Part shown: one piece after another, positions 126 to 11,357 of the stretch
Position numbering within the stretch: position 1 is the first letter of the stretch
Layout of the letters: each line of letters begins with the position of its first letter
NCBI GenBank assembly: GCA_020344715.1
Contig: CP070828.1
Location: 39,739 to 52,418, forward strand
From: Candidatus Bathyarchaeota archaeon
GTDB lineage: Archaea > Thermoproteota > Bathyarchaeia > Bathyarchaeales > Bathyarchaeaceae
Length of the DNA: 12,680 nt
Direction: 5' to 3'
Made by a program: the position numbers and the translations under genes
The notes under the pieces: generated by a model
Seen by the model: only the letters and a program-made list of their open reading frames with translations
Database searches by the model: none
Told to the model about the DNA's origin: nothing

Positions 126-488
126 TCATCCCATTATCTTCACGTTGGAACCTTTCGGGTTCTTCCTCACCAACTCTTGAAGTGACAGGCATTTCCCTTT
201 TGCCTTCAGAATCTTGGCTCGGGCATGCTCTGAAAAGCTGAACGCGGCTAAGCTAATAGGGTGATCAAGGCGTCCTGCTCCGAGAACCTTTCCGGGAACT
301 ATGACCGTCTCTTTTGCTTCTGTGGAGCGATTAAGTCGACTGAGATTGACGGCGACTCGTCGTCTTCGAGAGGTCGAAAGCCTTTTCGCGACGCTACGCC
401 AGATGCCGGATTCAGCCTCGATAGACTTCTTACTCAAAAGACGAATAACATTGCGCAGTTCCGAGTTGGTTGACTTGATCCGCTTCAT
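126..488 (-). CDS. rpl18e: Ribosomal protein eL18 (L18e)
   Basis: This encodes a 120-residue archaeal/eukaryotic-type large-subunit protein, L18e, of the uL15/eL18 family. It begins MKRIKSTNSELRNVIRLL and contains VNLSRLNR, VIVPGKVLGAG and ALAAFSF-like segments (the last reads SLAAFSFSEHA), all familiar in L18e. The frame is open one codon further upstream to a GTG at 491, but the ATG at 488 overlaps the Rpo3 stop by one base (TGATG), and MKRIKS is the usual family start, so I use 488. The length matches archaeal L18e. It is followed after three bases by uL13. There is no bacterial counterpart with this form, which helps mark the window as archaeal. Confidence 0.94.
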   Translation of the reverse strand: MKRIKSTNSELRNVIRLLSKKSIEAESGIWRSVAKRLSTSRRRRVAVNLSRLNRSTEAKETVIVPGKVLGAGRLDHPISLAAFSFSEHARAKILKAKGKCLSLQELVRKNPKGSNVKIMG

Positions 489-1300
489 CACTTCTTCTCC
501 ATTAGAAGCTTCAGGAAATTCTCGGCTTTTCCATCGAGAATTTTGACAGCTTCAAGCAATATTCGTTCCACGGGAAGTCCGCCACTCGATTCTACGTCAA
601 GAATAAATGCGTCTTGGTCCCAAGATGCTTCTATAGCTGTTGGGTCTTTGGCACAAGCGTCCACACAGTCTTGGCAAAGAGTGCACCCCGTAATGTTACG
701 GATTTCCACCTTCTTCCCAACATTCGTGAGAACTCTTTTCGAGCATATTTCTACACACTTACCGCAAGCATCACAGGCTTGCTGGTTTATCTTGATCTTT
801 GGAAAATATTTATAGACACACCCCGAGACAGGTTGCCATTTTGCGTGCTCTATTCCCTTGCCAAGTCGAGCGTAGGCTTCCAATCGAACTCTTTGGGATG
901 GTGCCAGTTTTACAAGCGGGATCTTCTCGCTTACGGGAATAATGTCCGGGTTGCTCGGCACAAGGTCACCGGAATACACTGTTCTAACGCTGTCGGTCGC
1001 TTCAACATCGAGCGTCAAAGTCACGCGACAAAGATTGCAACCAAACTCGCTCTTGCATGGACATTCTTCGGGCAAATTGTAAGAGTCTAGATCTGTTTTC
1101 AACGGGACAAGCCCAAGTCTATGGGCCATGATTTCGTCGTGCAGTATTGATGAATTCTCAAGGACAACGATTTCATCGATGACCATAGAGGGAACCTCGA
1201 CAAGCATTATCCGGCGCAACGCATTCATAAACGGTACATCAACATCTTCAATAATCAAACGAGCAGTAACATCAGTCTTGTCAACAACGCGCACTTCCAT
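488..1300 (-). CDS. rpo3: DNA-directed RNA polymerase subunit D (Rpo3) with ferredoxin-like domain
   Basis: This is the archaeal homologue of bacterial alpha / eukaryotic RPB3, which pairs with Rpo11 to form the RNA polymerase assembly platform. The N-terminal dimerisation domain is clear (PFMNALRRIMLVEVPSMVID, about residues 23-42). A possible metal site follows at C80, C82, C88 and C91. An inserted ferredoxin-like domain has two complete CxxCxxCxxxC motifs: C176/C179/C182/C186 and C206/C209/C212/C216. Some archaea have lost one or both clusters; here all eight Cys remain. The C-terminus returns to the dimerisation domain (VERILLEAVKIL). An upstream in-frame GTG exists at 1312, but the ATG at 1300 has AAGGTG eight bases before it, so I use 1300 (270 residues). 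The stop overlaps the eL18 start by one base. Confidence 0.95.
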   Translation of the reverse strand: MEVRVVDKTDVTARLIIEDVDVPFMNALRRIMLVEVPSMVIDEIVVLENSSILHDEIMAHRLGLVPLKTDLDSYNLPEECPCKSEFGCNLCRVTLTLDVEATDSVRTVYSGDLVPSNPDIIPVSEKIPLVKLAPSQRVRLEAYARLGKGIEHAKWQPVSGCVYKYFPKIKINQQACDACGKCVEICSKRVLTNVGKKVEIRNITGCTLCQDCVDACAKDPTAIEASWDQDAFILDVESSGGLPVERILLEAVKILDGKAENFLKLLMEKK

Positions 1301-1382
1301 ACAGCTAGACACCTTACAATGGCTGTCGATCTCTGTGTTTCAGATAAGGGAGAAAACGCATTATTTCAATATTTCCCTCTCG

Positions 1383-5322: not shown

Positions 5323-5859
5323 CTAGTACTCGATTCCTTTTCTGGGGGTCACACCTTCGGTAAAAGGATGCTTGATCTCCTTCATCTCGGTGACGAGGTC
5401 GGCCACCTCAACGATCTGCATTGGGGCGTAGCGCCCAGTGAGGATCAACTCTACATGTTTGGGCCTATTCTTGATCAACTGTAAGGCTTCATCCACCGTC
5501 ACCAGTTTTAGGTTTAGCGCTACGTTGATTTCATCGAGGACTACAATGTCGTATTGACCGCTTCCAATCACTTCTTTGGCTAGCTTAAGGGCTTCTTCCG
5601 CTAGCTTCACGTCCTCTTCATGAGGAGAAACTTCGGTGACGAATTTGCCTCGACCAAACGCGGCTAACTTGAAATTCGGAAGCTTCTTTACAACGTGAAG
5701 TTCCCCGTAGTCGAATCCGCCTTTGATAAACTGAATTATGTAAACTTTCAAACCTCGTCCGATGGCGCGCAGAGCAGCTCCAAACGCAGCCGAGGTCTTG
5801 CCTTTGCCGTCACCGGTGTAAACTTGGACAAGACCATGTTCTAATCGAAGTCTAGCCAT
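5323..5859 (-). CDS. cobA: ATP:corrinoid adenosyltransferase (CobA/CobO/BtuR family)
   Basis: This enzyme transfers the adenosyl group of ATP to reduced cobalamin precursors, producing the coenzyme the mutase in this operon needs. The 178-residue protein has the P-loop TGDGKGKTSAAFG (about 15-27), VYIIQFIKGG (39-48), the acidic motif VVLDEIN (106-112) and LTGRYAP near the C-terminus, all familiar in the CobA/BtuR group. It lacks the short N-terminal extension of the enterobacterial enzyme. It is the last gene of the operon, 17 bases after the GTPase. Its 3' end faces the ABC permease across a 65-base convergent gap in which I see no T-run or strong hairpin. PduO and EutT are unrelated families, so the call is fairly specific. 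The exact corrinoid used is not visible. Confidence 0.9.
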   Translation of the reverse strand: MARLRLEHGLVQVYTGDGKGKTSAAFGAALRAIGRGLKVYIIQFIKGGFDYGELHVVKKLPNFKLAAFGRGKFVTEVSPHEEDVKLAEEALKLAKEVIGSGQYDIVVLDEINVALNLKLVTVDEALQLIKNRPKHVELILTGRYAPMQIVEVADLVTEMKEIKHPFTEGVTPRKGIEY

Positions 5860-5877: not shown

Positions 5878-6828
5878 CTAACCATGTACCAATTTCTTAA
5901 GTACCTCATCCGCTACGGAATAGGGATCTGCTTCTTTCGTCAAGATTTTTTGTTTGAGCTTCTCCCATTCTCCCGTGTGTCGTAGATCCGCGATTATTGA
6001 TTCTACTATCTTCTGTTTGATGGCTTCGACGAGTTCGGTTTCAGCCTCTCCTTTGCGGTGGACCTCAAAAGCGCCTTTCTTTAGATACTCTCTGTGTTCT
6101 TCGATTCTGGCAAGAAGCTCGGCTATGCCTTCACCTGTTAGAGCCTTGGTTTTCAAAACGGAAGGCTTCCAGCTTTTTTCTTCTGTATTCATCTCCAGCA
6201 TTGCTTGGACCTCGCTCCAAGTTTTATTCGCATTTTGCCTGTCGGCTTTGTTAACCACGAAGATGTCACCTATCTCCATGATCCCAGCTTTGATGGCTTG
6301 AATATCGTCGCCTAGTCCAGGGGCCAAGACAACAATTACTGTATTCGAAACCTTTACGATTTCAACCTCTGACTGCCCCGCTCCAACAGTCTCAACAATG
6401 ATGACGTCCTTGCCTGAGGCATCGAGGATTCGTATCACATCTTTTGTAGCTCTACTCAAACCGCCAGTTGCGTTGCGATTTGCCATGCTTCGGATGAAAA
6501 CCCCTTCGTCGGTACTATGTTCCTGCATGCGAACTCGATCGCCCAAGAACGCGCCGCCAGTAAATGGACTTGTCGGATCCACCGCAATGACGCCAACGGT
6601 TTTGCCGCTTTTTCGAAGTTCCCTGATCAGCTTCTCAATAAGCGTGCTTTTTCCTGACCCGGTAGGCCCAGTTATGCCAATCACGTGAGCCTTACCAGTC
6701 TTTTGAAAGAGCTGAGCTACTATTTTTGGAGCCTCTGGTTCATTATTCTCAATTACAGTTATCGCTTTAGCTATAGAGCGGCGGTTGCGTCGAAGTACAC
6801 CTTGAACGAGCTGCGCTACTTGCCCCAC
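5878..6828 (-). CDS. meaB: MeaB/ArgK-type GTPase chaperone of B12-dependent acyl-CoA mutase
   Basis: This G3E-family GTPase guards the mutase: in studied homologues it gates adenosylcobalamin loading and protects the mutase against oxidised cofactor. The 316-residue protein has Walker A GPTGSGKST (54-62), the family motif DPTSPFTGGAFLGDRVRM (84-101), ETVGAGQSEVE (146-156) and the guanine-specificity NKAD (193-196). The C-terminal helical region (about 255-316) would form the dimerisation arm. The start is GTG at 6828; the frame is closed by a TGA at 6837-6835, so no earlier start is possible. It follows the B12-binding subunit after 26 bases. The same GTPase is fused to the mutase in IcmF proteins, so its presence does not by itself distinguish methylmalonyl- from isobutyryl-CoA mutase. 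Confidence 0.93.
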   Translation of the reverse strand: MGQVAQLVQGVLRRNRRSIAKAITVIENNEPEAPKIVAQLFQKTGKAHVIGITGPTGSGKSTLIEKLIRELRKSGKTVGVIAVDPTSPFTGGAFLGDRVRMQEHSTDEGVFIRSMANRNATGGLSRATKDVIRILDASGKDVIIVETVGAGQSEVEIVKVSNTVIVVLAPGLGDDIQAIKAGIMEIGDIFVVNKADRQNANKTWSEVQAMLEMNTEEKSWKPSVLKTKALTGEGIAELLARIEEHREYLKKGAFEVHRKGEAETELVEAIKQKIVESIIADLRHTGEWEKLKQKILTKEADPYSVADEVLKKLVHG

Positions 6829-6854: not shown

Positions 6855-7280
6855 TCATCTCTTCGCGTTTTCCTGAACAAACTCAACCAACGTGCCAGTT
6901 GGCGTTCCTGGTCCAAAAACCTCTTTTATGCCAATTCGCTTTAGGTCACGAATGTCTTCTTGAGGGATTATACCTCCAGCGAAAACGAGCACGTCGTCCA
7001 TGCCTTTCTCTTTTATGAGTTCCATTATTTTTGGGAAAAGAACTTTATGGGCACCAGAGAGTATACTTAGGCCTATCACATTTACGTCTTCTTGGAGGGC
7101 AGTTTCAACTATCTGCTCAGGCGTTTGCCTCAGCCCTGTGTAGATTATTTCCATCCCGGCATCTCTCAAAGCACGGGCAACAATTTTCGCCCCTCTGTCG
7201 TGGCTGTCCAAACCTGGTTTGGCAATTAGAACCCGGATCTTCCTTTCTGCGGTCAAATCGAATTCACACTTCCTAAACAA
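6855..7280 (-). CDS. Acyl-CoA mutase small subunit (B12-binding domain)
   Basis: This is the separate cobalamin-binding subunit of a two-subunit acyl-CoA mutase. Its fold holds the cofactor with His as lower cobalt ligand and supplies it to the TIM-barrel subunit. The motif is [12 protein letters not shown], the DxHxxG signature with the ligand at H27 (counted from the TTG at 7280). The later glycine-rich parts are [10 protein letters not shown] and [10 protein letters not shown]. The usual form is LDGHDRG; here Ser replaces the first Gly. The TTG at 7280 overlaps the large-subunit stop by eight bases. A second TTG at 7256 would give a start closer to the conserved core (about 133 residues), with AGGAAGTG upstream; either is possible. 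Length matches archaeal small subunits. Specificity is set by the large subunit. Confidence 0.92.
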
Positions 7281-8955
7281 CTATGAGTTCGCGGTATTCA
7301 CCAAAGACGGTGCGCAACACCTCAGTTATTTCCCCAAGTGTTGCATAGGTCTTCAAAGCTTTGATTATGATAGGCATAAGGTTTCTATCCCTGTCAGTTT
7401 CATCATGCAATTTGTCCAAAACTTCTTTGACTTTCCTATTATCTCTTTCCTTCTTCATTTTTCGGAGCCTGGCTACCTGTTCTTCCTCCACTTCTGGATG
7501 AACACGCAAAAGCTCCATGGGCACCCAGTCCTTCTCAACCGTGTAATCGTTAACTCCAACCAGTGTTCTTTGCCGGCTTTCGATTTCTTTCTGGTACAGA
7601 TAGGCGCTGTCAGCTATTTCCTTTTGAAAAAACCCTCGTTCTATTGCAGAAGAAACCCCTCCCATGGCATCTATCCTGTCTATGTACCGCATAGCACGTT
7701 CTTCCATCTTATTGGTCAAATATTCCACATAGTAGGAGCCACCGAGTTGATCAATTGTGTCGGTTACACCGCTTTCATAAGCTATAATCTGCTGCGTCCG
7801 CAGTGCGACTCTTACCGCCTCTTCACAGGGTAACGCCAAGGCTTCATCGAAAGAGTTAGTATGCAGCGATTGAGTGCCACCTAAAACTGCGGCTAGAGAC
7901 TGAAACGCGACCCGCATGACATTGTTGACAGGTTGTTGAGCGGTTAGCGTACAACCCGAAGTCTGAACATGCATCCTCATCCATAGCGACCGAGGATCCT
8001 CGGCGTTGAACCGTTCTTTCATGATCTTTGCCCAAAGCCTTCGAGCAGCTCGAAACTTGGCGATCTCCTCAAAAAAGTCGTTGTGCGAAGCAAAAAAGAA
8101 AGAAAGCCTGGGTGCAAACTCGTCCACTTTCAATCCTCGTTCAAGTGTTGATTCTACATAGGCTATGCCATCAGCCAGTGTGAAAGCTAGTTCTTGCACA
8201 GCGTTTGACCCTGCCTCACGTATGTGGTAGCCACTTATGCTCACAGGGTTCCAGTGGGGCAAGTGACGGGTGCAGTATTCGATGATGTCGGTTGATAATT
8301 TCAGTGAAGGTTTTGGTGGGAAAAGGCAAAGTTTCTGTGCAAAAAACTCTTTGAGATTGTCGTTTTGGGTTGTGCCATCTAGTTTTTCTCTCGGCACGCC
8401 TTGTTTGTCTCCTATGGCTATGTACATAGCCAAGAGCATGGCGGCGGGTCCATTAATTGTCATGGATGTACTGACTTTATTCAGAGGAATGCCGTTGAAG
8501 AGAGTCTCCATGTCCTTGAGAGAAGATACTGCGACTCCACATTGGCCAACTTCACCCGTGGCCATAGAGTGATCAGAATCATACCCCATTATGGTTGGGT
8601 AGTCAAATGCGATACTTAATCCGGTTTCGCCTTCACTCAGCAGGTACTTAAAGCGTTCATTTGTTTGTTCAGCAGTACCGAATCCGCTGAATTGACGCAT
8701 GGTCCATAAGCGCCCACGATACATAGTGGCATGCAAGCCCCGAGTAAACGGGTACTCACCGGGGAAACCTAGATCTTTCACATAGTCAAAATGCTCAATA
8801 TCTTCTGGCGTGTACAATCGCTTCACTTGAACTCCGGAAACTGTGGAGTATTTGTTTTTTTTCTCTGGGTGCCTCTCAATCCAGCTGGGAACCTTTGTCG
8901 TTTCCCATCGCTGCCGTTCCTTTGAGACTTCCCGTAGTTTGCGTTCATCGAACAT
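7273..8955 (-). CDS. B12-dependent acyl-CoA mutase large subunit, isobutyryl-CoA mutase-like active site
   Basis: This is the TIM-barrel subunit that binds the acyl-CoA and performs the radical carbon-skeleton rearrangement. Visible are [20 protein letters not shown] (68-87), GYDSDH (124-129), TTQND (195-199), [11 protein letters not shown] with Y243 and H244, [26 protein letters not shown] and LGGSYYVE. These make family membership certain. Using M at 8955, numbering coincides with the Propionibacterium methylmalonyl-CoA mutase. Position 89 is Phe (Tyr there) and position 207 is Gln (Arg there). Phe/Gln is the pair reported for isobutyryl-CoA mutase; position 116 is Ala, unlike the Asp of 2-hydroxyisobutyryl-CoA mutase. 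The frame is open to 9123, but GGAGG ten bases before the ATG at 8955 and a TATA box support 560 residues. It heads the operon; automatic annotation would probably say methylmalonyl-CoA mutase. Confidence 0.93.
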
Positions 8956-9090: not shown

Positions 9091-9317
9091 ATGAGTTTTG
9101 AAATCGCTGACGATTCGGTTCAAGCAACGTGCGAAGTGATCTCTAGAAGAATAGCAGCTAGAGGTGGAAGATTGCTCTTCATTTCCACGGCTGAATCGTC
9201 TTTGTTCAGGTTCTAGCTCATCAATTCATTGATGTTCTGTTAGAGCTTGCACGCGCAAAACTTAAGAAAGCAATCGTGTATATTGGATGCTCCCAAAATG
9301 GAGAAATGGAGTCATGA
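9091..9317 (+). pseudogene. Small gene of unknown function, apparently frameshifted, coupled to the thiolase-like gene
   Basis: Two overlapping frames look like halves of one protein of about 75 residues. The first runs from ATG 9091 (MSFEIADDSVQATCEVISRR, then IAARGGRLLFISTAESS) to a TAG at 9214-9216. The second, open from 9195, reads VQVLAHQFIDVLLELARAKL and KKAIVYIGCSQNGEMES, ending at TGA 9315-9317. One extra T in the TTT run at 9201-9203 would join them as ...STAESSFVQVLAHQF.... The final TGA overlaps the next gene's ATG (ATGA, 9314-9317), the usual sign of a coupled upstream gene. The second half has no good start codon of its own. I do not recognise the family; the mixed helix/strand pattern with a Cys near the end gives no function. 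It may be a sequencing error, a true pseudogene, or chance. Confidence 0.4.
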
Positions 9318-10783
9318 CGTTTAAACCAAGAGAAGTTGCAGTGATCGGAGGTGGAGTAATACCTCACAGTAAAGGTAGACCTGACTGCAACATCACTGAC
9401 ATGTGTGTTGAAGCCTACAATATGGCGCAAGAAAACCTCTCAGAACAAATGGGCAAGCCTTTCGAAAATAGCTACATCGATGCCTTAGTGGTGAGCTACT
9501 TCAGTGACCATTTTGCAGGTCAGTTACTCGGTGAAGCGATGATAGCGGATTCCCTGGGACTCAATCCGAAAAGAAGCTACAGGGCAATAGGCGGAGGGGC
9601 AACAGGTGGACTAGGGGTCCAAAATGGATATTCACTTATAGCATCAGGACTTGCCGACGTTGTTGCAGTTGTAGGCTTTGAGAAGATGAGTTTGGTCGAC
9701 ACAGCAGAGGGTAATGAATACATTGCGTTGGCCAGCGATACTGACTGGGACTTCGCGAACGGCGGCTACTACACGGCATACTATGCAGCTATGGCCGCGG
9801 AATACGCCAAGACCTTCAATATTCCCGTTGATGTTTTCGAACGTCAGATGGCTGAAGTGAGCGTTAAAAACAGACGGAACGCCCAGTCAAACCCTTTTGC
9901 CCAAACGAGTTGGCTGAATCCCTGGTGTGTTAAGGGTGCACGCCAGAATGTTACAGGGGAAATCACCGCGGAAGAGGTTCTAGAATCAGGTTATTGTGCA
10001 ACACCGTTGCGACTGAGAAACTGCTGTCTGATGTCAGATGGAGCAGCTATAGTCATTCTAGCCTCCAAAGAGACCGCTCACAAACTCGTTGACAAACCAA
10101 TTTGGATAATCGGAACAGGGATGGGCACAGACACAATGCGACCAGGTGATCGATATGACACTGTAGGCGGTCTACACGAATACGACCTCATTCTGCCAAA
10201 CGAGGACGAGAAAACACAACAAAGATACAAAAAACTTCGTTATCCGGGTCAAAACAGTTTCCGCGCCGGTCGAATGAGTGCGAAGCAGGCATACTGGATG
10301 GCTCAAATTGAGAACCCGTTAAAAGAGATGGATGTTGTCGAAATCCATGACGCATTTAGCAGCAGTGAAATTCAAACATATGAGGATTTGGGCCTTTGCC
10401 CGTACGGCAAGGGTGGAGAATTCGTCATGAGTGGCGCAGCCAATATTGATGGCGAAGTGGCAATCAATCCATCAGGCGGCCTCATTGGTATGGGTCATAG
10501 CGTTGGCAGCAGCGGCGTATGGCAAGTATACTTCACTTACCTACAGCTGAGAGGCGATATTGACCAGGTCTTCAAAAGCTGGAATGAACGCTTCAAACCA
10601 TATAATGACAACAGAAATATACCGAGACCAGCGCAGGTGCCAAATGCCAGATTGGGAGCAGGTCATAGCCATGCAGGCACTGGAAGCCACGTGACATACA
10701 CAATACTAAGCAACAAAGAAAGCGATCTAGAGCGGATTCGACCTTTATCCGAATTTCCATCCAGGTTGATTAGGAGGCCTTGA
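9314..10783 (+). CDS. Thiolase-fold protein (SCP-x/lipid-transfer type) lacking the nucleophilic Cys
   Basis: This 489-residue protein is a thiolase-superfamily member, about 100 residues longer than most archaeal thiolases. Family segments are RAIGGGATGGLGVQNGY (90-106), SGLADVVAVVGFEKMS, VVEIHDAFSSSE (HDAF at 345-348) and NPSGGLIGMGHSVGSSG (His at 395). Aligned with the intact thiolase at 11600, its Cys89 corresponds to Gly95, and HDCF is HDAF; only the GHS histidine remains. It therefore should not do normal Cys-based thiolysis. About 50 extra residues lie between these motifs. The ATG at 9314 is preferred over 9287, because GGAG precedes it, the conserved PREVAVIGGGVIP follows, and it overlaps an upstream stop. 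It is adjacent to a DUF35 gene, as in Ltp2-ChsH2(DUF35) retro-aldolases. An aldolase-like or structural role is inferred. Confidence 0.88.
   Translation: MTFKPREVAVIGGGVIPHSKGRPDCNITDMCVEAYNMAQENLSEQMGKPFENSYIDALVVSYFSDHFAGQLLGEAMIADSLGLNPKRSYRAIGGGATGGLGVQNGYSLIASGLADVVAVVGFEKMSLVDTAEGNEYIALASDTDWDFANGGYYTAYYAAMAAEYAKTFNIPVDVFERQMAEVSVKNRRNAQSNPFAQTSWLNPWCVKGARQNVTGEITAEEVLESGYCATPLRLRNCCLMSDGAAIVILASKETAHKLVDKPIWIIGTGMGTDTMRPGDRYDTVGGLHEYDLILPNEDEKTQQRYKKLRYPGQNSFRAGRMSAKQAYWMAQIENPLKEMDVVEIHDAFSSSEIQTYEDLGLCPYGKGGEFVMSGAANIDGEVAINPSGGLIGMGHSVGSSGVWQVYFTYLQLRGDIDQVFKSWNERFKPYNDNRNIPRPAQVPNARLGAGHSHAGTGSHVTYTILSNKESDLERIRPLSEFPSRLIRRP
10772..10777 (+). promoter_or_regulatory. Ribosome binding site for the DUF35 gene
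   Basis: AGGAGG lies seven bases before the TTG at 10785 and inside the last codons of the preceding gene. It is the main reason to accept a TTG start for the DUF35 protein. Confidence 0.75.
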
Positions 10784-10784
10784 C

Positions 10785-11357
10785 TTGGACACCAAGAAAC
10801 TTAACGTAAAAGGTATAGTTCGACCTGAAAGCAAACGTCTAATGGGTCACCCAGAATACGTTGTTTCAATCCGAGATTACACCACCTATCAATTCAAGCC
10901 GTATGGACGGAACAGTAAGTACTTTAGAGCATTAGCAGAAGAAAAAAAGATTCTAGCCACAAAATGCAAAAGACACGGATTCTTCTTACCACCAAGACCT
11001 TTCTGTCCAGACTGTCAGTCTCCAGATATGGAGTGGATAGATTACACCAACCAGCCAGCCCAAGTGAAAACTGCGTCCATATGCAAATTTGCAGGCAAAG
11101 CGTTTCTGGACGAGACCCCCTTCTTACTGGGGTTCATTCAGATGGGTGAGGCAAAAACAGTGATGTCTTCAGTAGTGAAGCTTTCCGAAGATTCAGCAGA
11201 AAACACTCGGATGCTAAACAAGCTTATGGATACTAGGAGATACATGGAGCTCAACGGAAGAAAGGTGGAACCAAGGTTCATCTCACATCCTCAATATACA
11301 GTGAGGGACATCTACTTCATAGTAACAGACAAAGAATGGCTCAATACTCTGAAATAA
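10785..11357 (+). CDS. DUF35 Zn-ribbon/OB-fold acyl-CoA-binding partner of thiolase-like protein
   Basis: This 190-residue protein belongs to the DUF35 group: a rubredoxin-like zinc ribbon followed by an OB fold. In characterised archaeal and actinobacterial complexes such proteins bind thiolase-fold enzymes and help hold or shuttle CoA substrates. The ribbon is TKCKRHGFFLPPRPFCPDCQ (59-78): C61, C74 and C77 are in place, and the second ligand position is His64 rather than the usual Cys. The PPR motif is intact. The OB-fold part spans about 85-185 (VKTASICKFAGKAFLDETPF onward). The N-terminal 45 residues probably form the helical arm that packs on the partner. The TTG start follows the preceding stop by one base and has AGGAGG upstream, so both proteins are probably made together. 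A T-run follows it. Confidence 0.87.
   Translation: MDTKKLNVKGIVRPESKRLMGHPEYVVSIRDYTTYQFKPYGRNSKYFRALAEEKKILATKCKRHGFFLPPRPFCPDCQSPDMEWIDYTNQPAQVKTASICKFAGKAFLDETPFLLGFIQMGEAKTVMSSVVKLSEDSAENTRMLNKLMDTRRYMELNGRKVEPRFISHPQYTVRDIYFIVTDKEWLNTLK

Follow-up and report, generated by a model that had tools for sequence, protein, structure and literature searches.

A predicted isobutyryl-CoA mutase-type enzyme of Bathyarchaeia and its methylmalonyl-CoA mutase-type paralogue

Introduction

The acyl-CoA mutases that depend on adenosylcobalamin (AdoCbl) share a common chemistry: homolysis of AdoCbl, formation of a substrate radical and migration of the CO-SCoA group. According to an excerpt of PMC5017805, syntrophic bacteria isomerise isobutyrate to butyrate, which is then β-oxidised. 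In the same excerpt the isobutyrate syntroph Syntrophothermus lipocalidus is credited with the four-gene set that is also found at the locus described here, and this set is called the isobutyryl-CoA mutase (ICM) cluster. IcmF is widely misannotated as methylmalonyl-CoA mutase (MCM), as stated in part of PMC7764203. A protein of the archaeon Cuniculiplasma has already been named 'isobutyryl-CoA mutase subunit B' in print (excerpt of PMC7285479), so that annotating an archaeal protein as ICM has a precedent. In excerpts of the open-access literature on Bathyarchaeota combined with isobutyryl- or methylmalonyl-CoA mutase, isobutyrate or branched-chain, no Bathyarchaeial ICM was announced.

Results

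The window (the whole stretch of DNA that was analysed, 12 680 nucleotides) comes from a genome of 1.31 Mb that is 64.6% complete. Judged by the mutase gene, the closest named relatives of this host genome (G000) are Bathyarchaeota. The mutase gene is followed on the same strand by genes for a B12-binding subunit, which overlaps its 3′ end, a MeaB-type chaperone and a CobA/BtuR-type adenosyltransferase, each scoring above its curated cut-off. In the following, mutases with Phe89/Gln207 are termed F/Q and those with Tyr89/Arg207 Y/R (F/A/Q and Y/A/R when Ala116 is included); HCM denotes 2-hydroxyisobutyryl-CoA mutase.

7273..8955, minus strand: predicted ICM-type acyl-CoA mutase, catalytic (large) subunit, 560 aa
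8966..8970, minus strand: GGAGG, Shine-Dalgarno-like, preceding ATG 8955 (read from the sequence)
8689..8691, minus strand: Phe89 codon TTC; the counterpart is Tyr in MCM and Ile in HCM, and IcmF also has Phe
8608..8610, minus strand: Ala116 codon GCA; the HCM counterpart is Asp
8590..8592, minus strand: Ile122 codon ATA; third group-separating column
8335..8337, minus strand: Gln207 codon CAG; MCM has Arg here, HCM and IcmF also have Gln
8326..8328, minus strand: Cys210 codon TGC; clade-specific, adjoining the carboxylate site, mostly aromatic in others, also Cys in IcmF
6855..7280, minus strand: B12-binding small subunit (MutC), 141 aa, DSHDRG motif (TIGR00640, 174.9 bits)
5878..6828, minus strand: MeaB-type GTPase chaperone (TIGR00750, 362.9 bits)
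5323..5859, minus strand: CobA/BtuR-type corrinoid adenosyltransferase (TIGR00708, 190.2 bits)
9287..10783, plus strand: thiolase-fold protein, divergent from the operon; functional link putative
10785..11357, plus strand: DUF35/ChsH2-type Zn-ribbon (PF12172), partner of the thiolase-fold protein; functional link putative

The thiolase-fold protein has a glycine aligned to the cysteine of the 6esq thiolase (CASG) and also matches the lipid-transfer protein 6ok1 (E 7.8e-11). Together with the adjacent ChsH2/DUF35-type Zn ribbon it may resemble the Ltp2/ChsH2 aldolases. Elsewhere in the window, 488-1312 (minus strand) encodes subunit D of RNA polymerase, which contains a ferredoxin-like 4Fe-4S region, and an Rfam scan of the window yielded no match at the gathering threshold.

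Active-site residues and family models

Alignment of the mutase to MCM, HCM and IcmF gave Phe89, Ala116 and Gln207. The alignment with MCM (1req_A) was free of gaps over residues 64–300 and placed Phe89 on Tyr and Gln207 on Arg. The positions given in the initial annotation for the TTC and CAG codons are correct. Against HCM (4r3u_A), Phe89 falls on Ile, Ala116 on Asp and Gln207 on Gln; the distinction from HCM, which had been based on Asp116 and Ile89 of that enzyme, is upheld. In the alignment with IcmF, for which a joined query was used, Phe89 and Gln207 fall on Phe and Gln at letters 618 and 762 of the chain, corresponding to residues 598 and 742 given a 20-residue offset. We take Phe598 and Gln742 to be the specificity residues of IcmF, as Jost et al. 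reportedly described in 2015. These residue equivalences are read from sequence alignments, the structural alignments having returned ranges rather than residue pairs; an offset of the pair from the substrate positions, named beforehand as refuting, was not seen in the sequence alignments. The catalytic core residues R87, T195, Q197, Y243 and H244, also listed in the initial annotation, are present in the query and kept in all F/Q rows counted.

Columns 89, 122 and 207 fully separate 85 F/Q from 21 Y/R sequences. Column 122, which was absent from the earlier list of positions, holds Ile or Leu in F/Q and Gln or His in Y/R enzymes. The Bathyarchaeial F/Q clade has residues of its own at positions 119, 122, 205, 209, 210, 328 and 330, and Y119, I122, L209, C210, M328 and V/I330 differ from most other F/Q enzymes. 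An AlphaFold model of the query based on a second alignment of 96 rows reached a pLDDT of 90.3 and superposes on HCM, MCM and holo-IcmF over 497–553 residues. A first model from 34 rows had been discarded because of a pLDDT below 50 at residues 65–90.

The family model TIGR00641 names the query MCM at the domain level. The query stays below the NCBI equivalog MCM model NF006944 (649.1 vs 876 bits), which was built for the 721-position form of MCM and which separate-subunit MCMs may fail too, and below the IcmF equivalog NF045497 (381.6 vs 1500 bits), its genes being separate rather than one fused chain. A two-subunit ICM is recognised by Phe89/Gln207 instead of Tyr/Arg and by a separate B12-binding small subunit with a DxHxxG motif. 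Both are found here, the latter as DSHDRG in the product of 6855–7280, and the query has neither the Tyr89/Arg207 of MCM nor the Ile89 and Asp116 of HcmA.

Distribution of the F/Q state

The query is by no means the rarity that it was at first taken for. F/A/Q occurs in the query and in all of the best 120 homologues listed, which makes it a member of a large clade. Among 80 loci fetched from named genomes, belonging to Chloroflexota, Archaeoglobi, Thermoplasmatota, Armatimonadota and others, the best match was F/A/Q in 76 and Y/A/R in four (L008, L009, L013 and L075); second, Y/A/R mutase copies lie in L019 and L057. IcmF was searched for in 18 genomes or records and none scored over the cut-off. 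Deviant mutases were also encountered. A Sphingobium plasmid (L110, 2959–4680) encodes one with V89/E116/V207 and Thr87, lacking Tyr243-His244, next to MutC- and MeaB-like genes and close to a P450 gene. Two Bathyarchaeial mutases, with Leu89/Val116/Arg207 (L237, G049) and Leu89/Ala116/Gly207 (L230, G064), are neither MCM- nor ICM-like.

A second, Y/R mutase and its linkage to epimerase

In a class-wide sample of 161 Bathyarchaeia genomes, 54 had a mutase match and 53 were classified, fragments being counted wherever residues 89 and 207 were readable; G183, with a short C-terminal mutase piece only, was left unclassified. Both F/Q and Y/R mutases occur in 39 of the 53 classified genomes, F/Q alone in four, Y/R alone in eight and an odd type in one. 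One genome of the Y/R-only class (G020) also has an F/Q-like piece of 39 residues adjoining a MutC. Besides its F/Q gene, the host genome carries a second mutase gene (L002/L103, L240) that is cut off by a run of N and lacks its N-terminal part. A PycB/OadA-like gene and a biotin carrier adjoin it. For most of the full-length Y/R copies in Bathyarchaeia, identity to the query is approximately 54–66%.

Where a Bathyarchaeial Y/R gene and an epimerase over the cut-off share a contig, the distance between them is at most 25 kb in 20 of 22 cases; the wider count is 20 of the 35 genomes that have both. For the F/Q gene, none of seven same-contig cases shows an epimerase at this distance (0/32 in the wider count). 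Fisher's test gave p = 2e-5 for the same-contig cases and p = 6e-8 for the wider counts, the genomes being related and hence non-independent. The initial annotation had also argued from the lack of a methylmalonyl-CoA epimerase nearby. Of the epimerase evidence, only the linkage counted above is strong. Absence of the enzyme as an argument for ICM was rejected as stated, since the host genome holds an epimerase 822 kb from the F/Q gene.

In the F/Q-only Bathyarchaeia, G026 (98% complete) and G193 showed neither a Y/R gene nor an epimerase match and G089 and G184 carry an epimerase, so that its absence from two of four genomes shows little. No epimerase over the cut-off was detected in ten f22 genomes with both mutases (G071, G074, G076, G090, G096, G098, G101, G103, G105 and G106) or in G020 and G190, which have a Y/R gene. 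The F/Q mutase of the f22 genomes bears the signature F A L Q K W, unlike the Bathyarchaeial clade, and their F/Q and Y/R genes are close neighbours on opposite strands. Judged from sequence, the separate Y/R gene looks like the genuine MCM of these Bathyarchaeia, and this second mutase is the strongest evidence for an ICM-type reading of the F/Q gene.

One B12-binding subunit and two mutases

In the host genome, the MutC beside the F/Q gene is the only strong copy and the adjacent MeaB the only copy found. The same holds more widely: all 14 two-mutase genomes tested (G000, G011, G014, G023, G024, G071, G101, G124, G129, G135, G163, G170, G177 and G179) have one strong MutC (at least 54% identity) and one strong MeaB each. 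In 12 of the 14 the single strong MutC directly adjoins the F/Q gene. The exceptions are G071 and G101 of f22, in which MutC is apart and MeaB lies between both mutases. The remaining MutC matches (25–34% identity, below 50 bits) resemble other corrinoid proteins, most of their frames being longer. At approximately 545–600 aa, the Y/R frames of the tested genomes (that of the host genome is cut) are too short to include a B12 domain. Together with the single strong MutC per genome, this suggests that MCM probably borrows the B12 subunit of the ICM operon and that MeaB, too, is probably shared. The claim that the enzyme has its own GTPase is therefore doubtful. Y/R-only genomes agree less well with a shared subunit: MutC and MeaB are both strong in G053 and G061, but G190 gave a partial MeaB and no match for MutC, and G132 (98% complete, with Y/R mutase and epimerase) yielded no strong MutC and no MeaB over the cut-off.

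Gene neighbourhoods

Neighbourhoods were surveyed with a small set of reference proteins in stretches of 3–22 kb around the mutase loci. In all five named Bathyarchaeota F/Q loci (L003–L007) the mutase is followed by MutC, MeaB and BtuR; across the 76 F/Q loci, MutC was found within the stretch surveyed in 27, MeaB in 19 and BtuR in 12. A relative of acyl-CoA dehydrogenase, enoyl-CoA hydratase or 3-hydroxybutyryl-CoA dehydrogenase is present in 21 of the 76, including loci of Archaeoglobi (L018, L025, L038, L040) and Thermoplasmatota (L024, L033, L056). The other 55, among them all five named Bathyarchaeota, have none of these three types within the stretch surveyed. Tested neighbours in L004, L006 and L007 were thiolase, KAS-III-like, methionine-gamma-lyase-like and unrelated genes. 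Around the nine Bathyarchaeial Y/R loci, a biotin carrier is close to four (L008, L100–L102), with a carboxylase in addition at L008, and none was seen within the short flanks of L093, L094 and L097–L099.

An epimerase lies close to five of the 76 F/Q loci, all from Chloroflexi. This makes absence of a nearby epimerase weak evidence alone, and these loci are the best evidence against the ICM reading. In L019 and L057, Y/R mutase, epimerase and F/Q mutase stand in one row; in L026, L032 and L046 the epimerase directly precedes the F/Q gene. A Y/R gene is located elsewhere in G038 and G041 (the genomes of L032 and L046) and was not found in G037 (that of L026). The order in these three loci may be a remnant of the L019-type order. 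In L019 (3414–11700) both mutase types are arranged around epimerase and BtuR, accompanied by a single MutC and a MeaB.

Origin of the F/Q pair

All trees were built from sets without any characterised two-subunit ICM sequence. The first contained 122 rows, 22 of them Y/R, with nine of the best 120 homologues listed, and the specificity columns were kept. Short rows or rows with stops (L002, L061, L092, L095, L096, L103, L104) and the duplicate L083 had been removed; the smaller sets omit further rows. In this tree all F/Q rows, HCM and one V/D/Q row lie on one side of a branch (SH-aLRT 98). With nine specificity columns masked, a 93-row tree including 40 Y/R rows grouped the Bathyarchaeial F/Q with 12 Bathyarchaeial Y/R sequences (support 99). 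A masked quick tree of 69 rows also placed Bathyarchaeial F/Q beside Bathyarchaeial Y/R (93), and HCM moved, indicating that the placement of HCM is unstable.

Constrained topologies were tested with 51 rows. With masking, holding F/Q and HCM together cost 0.64 in log-likelihood (AU p 0.495), and the grouping of Bathyarchaeial F/Q with Y/R was already in the tree (support 34.6). With all columns retained, holding F/Q and HCM together gained 32.28 over the free tree (p 0.878) and holding Bathyarchaeial F/Q and Y/R together gained 14.23 (p 0.673). It is the specificity columns themselves that support a single F/Q clade, and this support disappears once they are masked. We therefore claim neither one origin nor two. 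It is conceivable, and in our judgement somewhat doubtful, that the ICM pair of Bathyarchaeia arose in parallel with that of bacteria, through a duplication of their own MCM and the subsequent changes Y89F, R207Q and Q122I, and that one cofactor module came to serve both mutases; this module, encoded together with the ICM gene, would consist of one B12-binding subunit, MeaB and the adenosyltransferase.

Discussion

The gene at 7273–8955 probably encodes the catalytic subunit of a stand-alone AdoCbl-dependent ICM-type mutase of a Bathyarchaeon. It would work together with the adjacently encoded B12-binding subunit, and MeaB and the CobA/BtuR adenosyltransferase of the operon would load and repair the cofactor. 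Phe89 and Gln207 replace the Tyr and Arg that hold the second carboxylate of methylmalonyl-CoA, which suggests a pocket for a neutral branched C4 acyl-CoA; combined with the chemistry of the family, this points to a substrate of the neutral branched acyl-CoA type, isobutyryl-CoA being the simplest choice. A likely role would be to channel isobutyryl-CoA from valine or isobutyrate into β-oxidation to two acetyl-CoA, or the reverse. Matches in the host genome comprise four acyl-CoA dehydrogenases, two enoyl-CoA hydratases (ECH) and one strong 3-hydroxyacyl-CoA dehydrogenase (3HCDH). Acyl-CoA dehydrogenases number 3–10 in the 13 F/Q-bearing genomes examined (14 handles, G026 and G029 being the same genome) vs 0–1 in four mutase-free relatives. 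The latter have one ECH and one strong 3HCDH each, so that these two families do not track the mutase.

The F/Q pair means 'no second carboxylate' and alone cannot distinguish isobutyryl-CoA from other neutral C4–C5 acyl-CoAs. A neutral-acyl-CoA mutase with another physiological substrate, such as pivalyl/isovaleryl-CoA, 2-hydroxyisobutyryl/3-hydroxybutyryl-CoA or an undescribed C5 acyl-CoA, is an unlikely candidate. The pocket-side residues particular to the Bathyarchaeial clade, the position of HCM on the F/Q side of the unmasked 122-row tree and the adjacent thiolase-fold protein, which lacks the usual Cys as an aldolase might, are compatible with it. Pivalyl- and isovaleryl-CoA are IcmF substrates as well (parts of PMC10481361 and PMC9974510), and Kyrpidia RcmAB, although distant from HcmAB, converts 2-hydroxyisobutyryl-CoA (part of PMC7176365). 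On the other hand, the enzyme has Phe89 and Ala116, not the Ile and Asp of HCM, and Cys210 and a hydrophobic residue 122 are also found in IcmF.

An MCM whose carboxylate-binding residues have drifted is improbable. Its name under TIGR00641 holds at the domain level, and the equivalog MCM model is missed; P. shermanii MCM carrying Y89F has been crystallised together with substrate (5req), but here both carboxylate-binding residues are changed, and they are fixed across the whole clade. The epimerase near five of the 76 F/Q genes, three of which have no Y/R gene in the stretch surveyed, would suit such an enzyme; against this, epimerase is linked to the Y/R paralogue. We consider it very improbable that the F/Q protein, in the manner of the small beta subunit of Propionibacterium MCM, serves the Y/R mutase as a non-catalytic or regulatory partner. 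Such a partner would explain one shared B12 subunit, in keeping with the single strong MutC and MeaB in each of the 14 two-mutase genomes, the host included, and with the two mutase genes and one MutC of the Chloroflexi locus L019. The five core residues are nevertheless retained in every F/Q row counted, and G026 and G193 have an F/Q gene with no Y/R gene found.

The observation itself is real, and the ICM-type reading is well supported at the level of sequence: of the initial case for ICM over MCM, the residue pair and the core stand, joined by the Y/R paralogue and the epimerase linkage. The points of interest are the possible parallel origin and a B12 subunit that two mutases probably share. 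Enzymes of a large archaeal and bacterial group carry the name MCM although their active site indicates ICM; metabolic maps then show a propionate/succinate step in places that may belong to a valine, isobutyrate or butyrate step. As Bathyarchaeota are abundant in sediments, the correction would affect predictions of how protein and branched-chain acids are fermented. With F/Q and Y/R genes in pairs, these genomes offer a compact test of the smallest number of residue changes that turns a radical mutase from a diacid to a monoacid substrate and, with one B12 subunit, of whether a cofactor subunit can be shared by two mutases.

Among the known systems, the ICM cluster Slip_0757–0760 of S. lipocalidus TGB-C1 contains the same four genes (N- and C-terminal mutase subunits, adenosyltransferase and MeaB-like protein), as given in an excerpt of PMC5017805. 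It is bacterial and is likened here by gene set only, whereas the Bathyarchaeial enzyme forms its own clade and often has MCM as co-resident. IcmF (4xc6/5cjt) resembles the enzyme in the F/Q pair, the hydrophobic residue 122, Cys210 and fold, but unites B12 domain, G domain and mutase in one polypeptide, which are separate genes here. HcmA (4r3u) differs in having Ile89 and Asp116 in place of Phe89 and Ala116. MCM (1req, 2xij) and the Bathyarchaeial Y/R paralogues share the fold and catalytic core and differ in Y89/R207 and Q/H122; they are often linked to epimerase and some to a biotin carrier.
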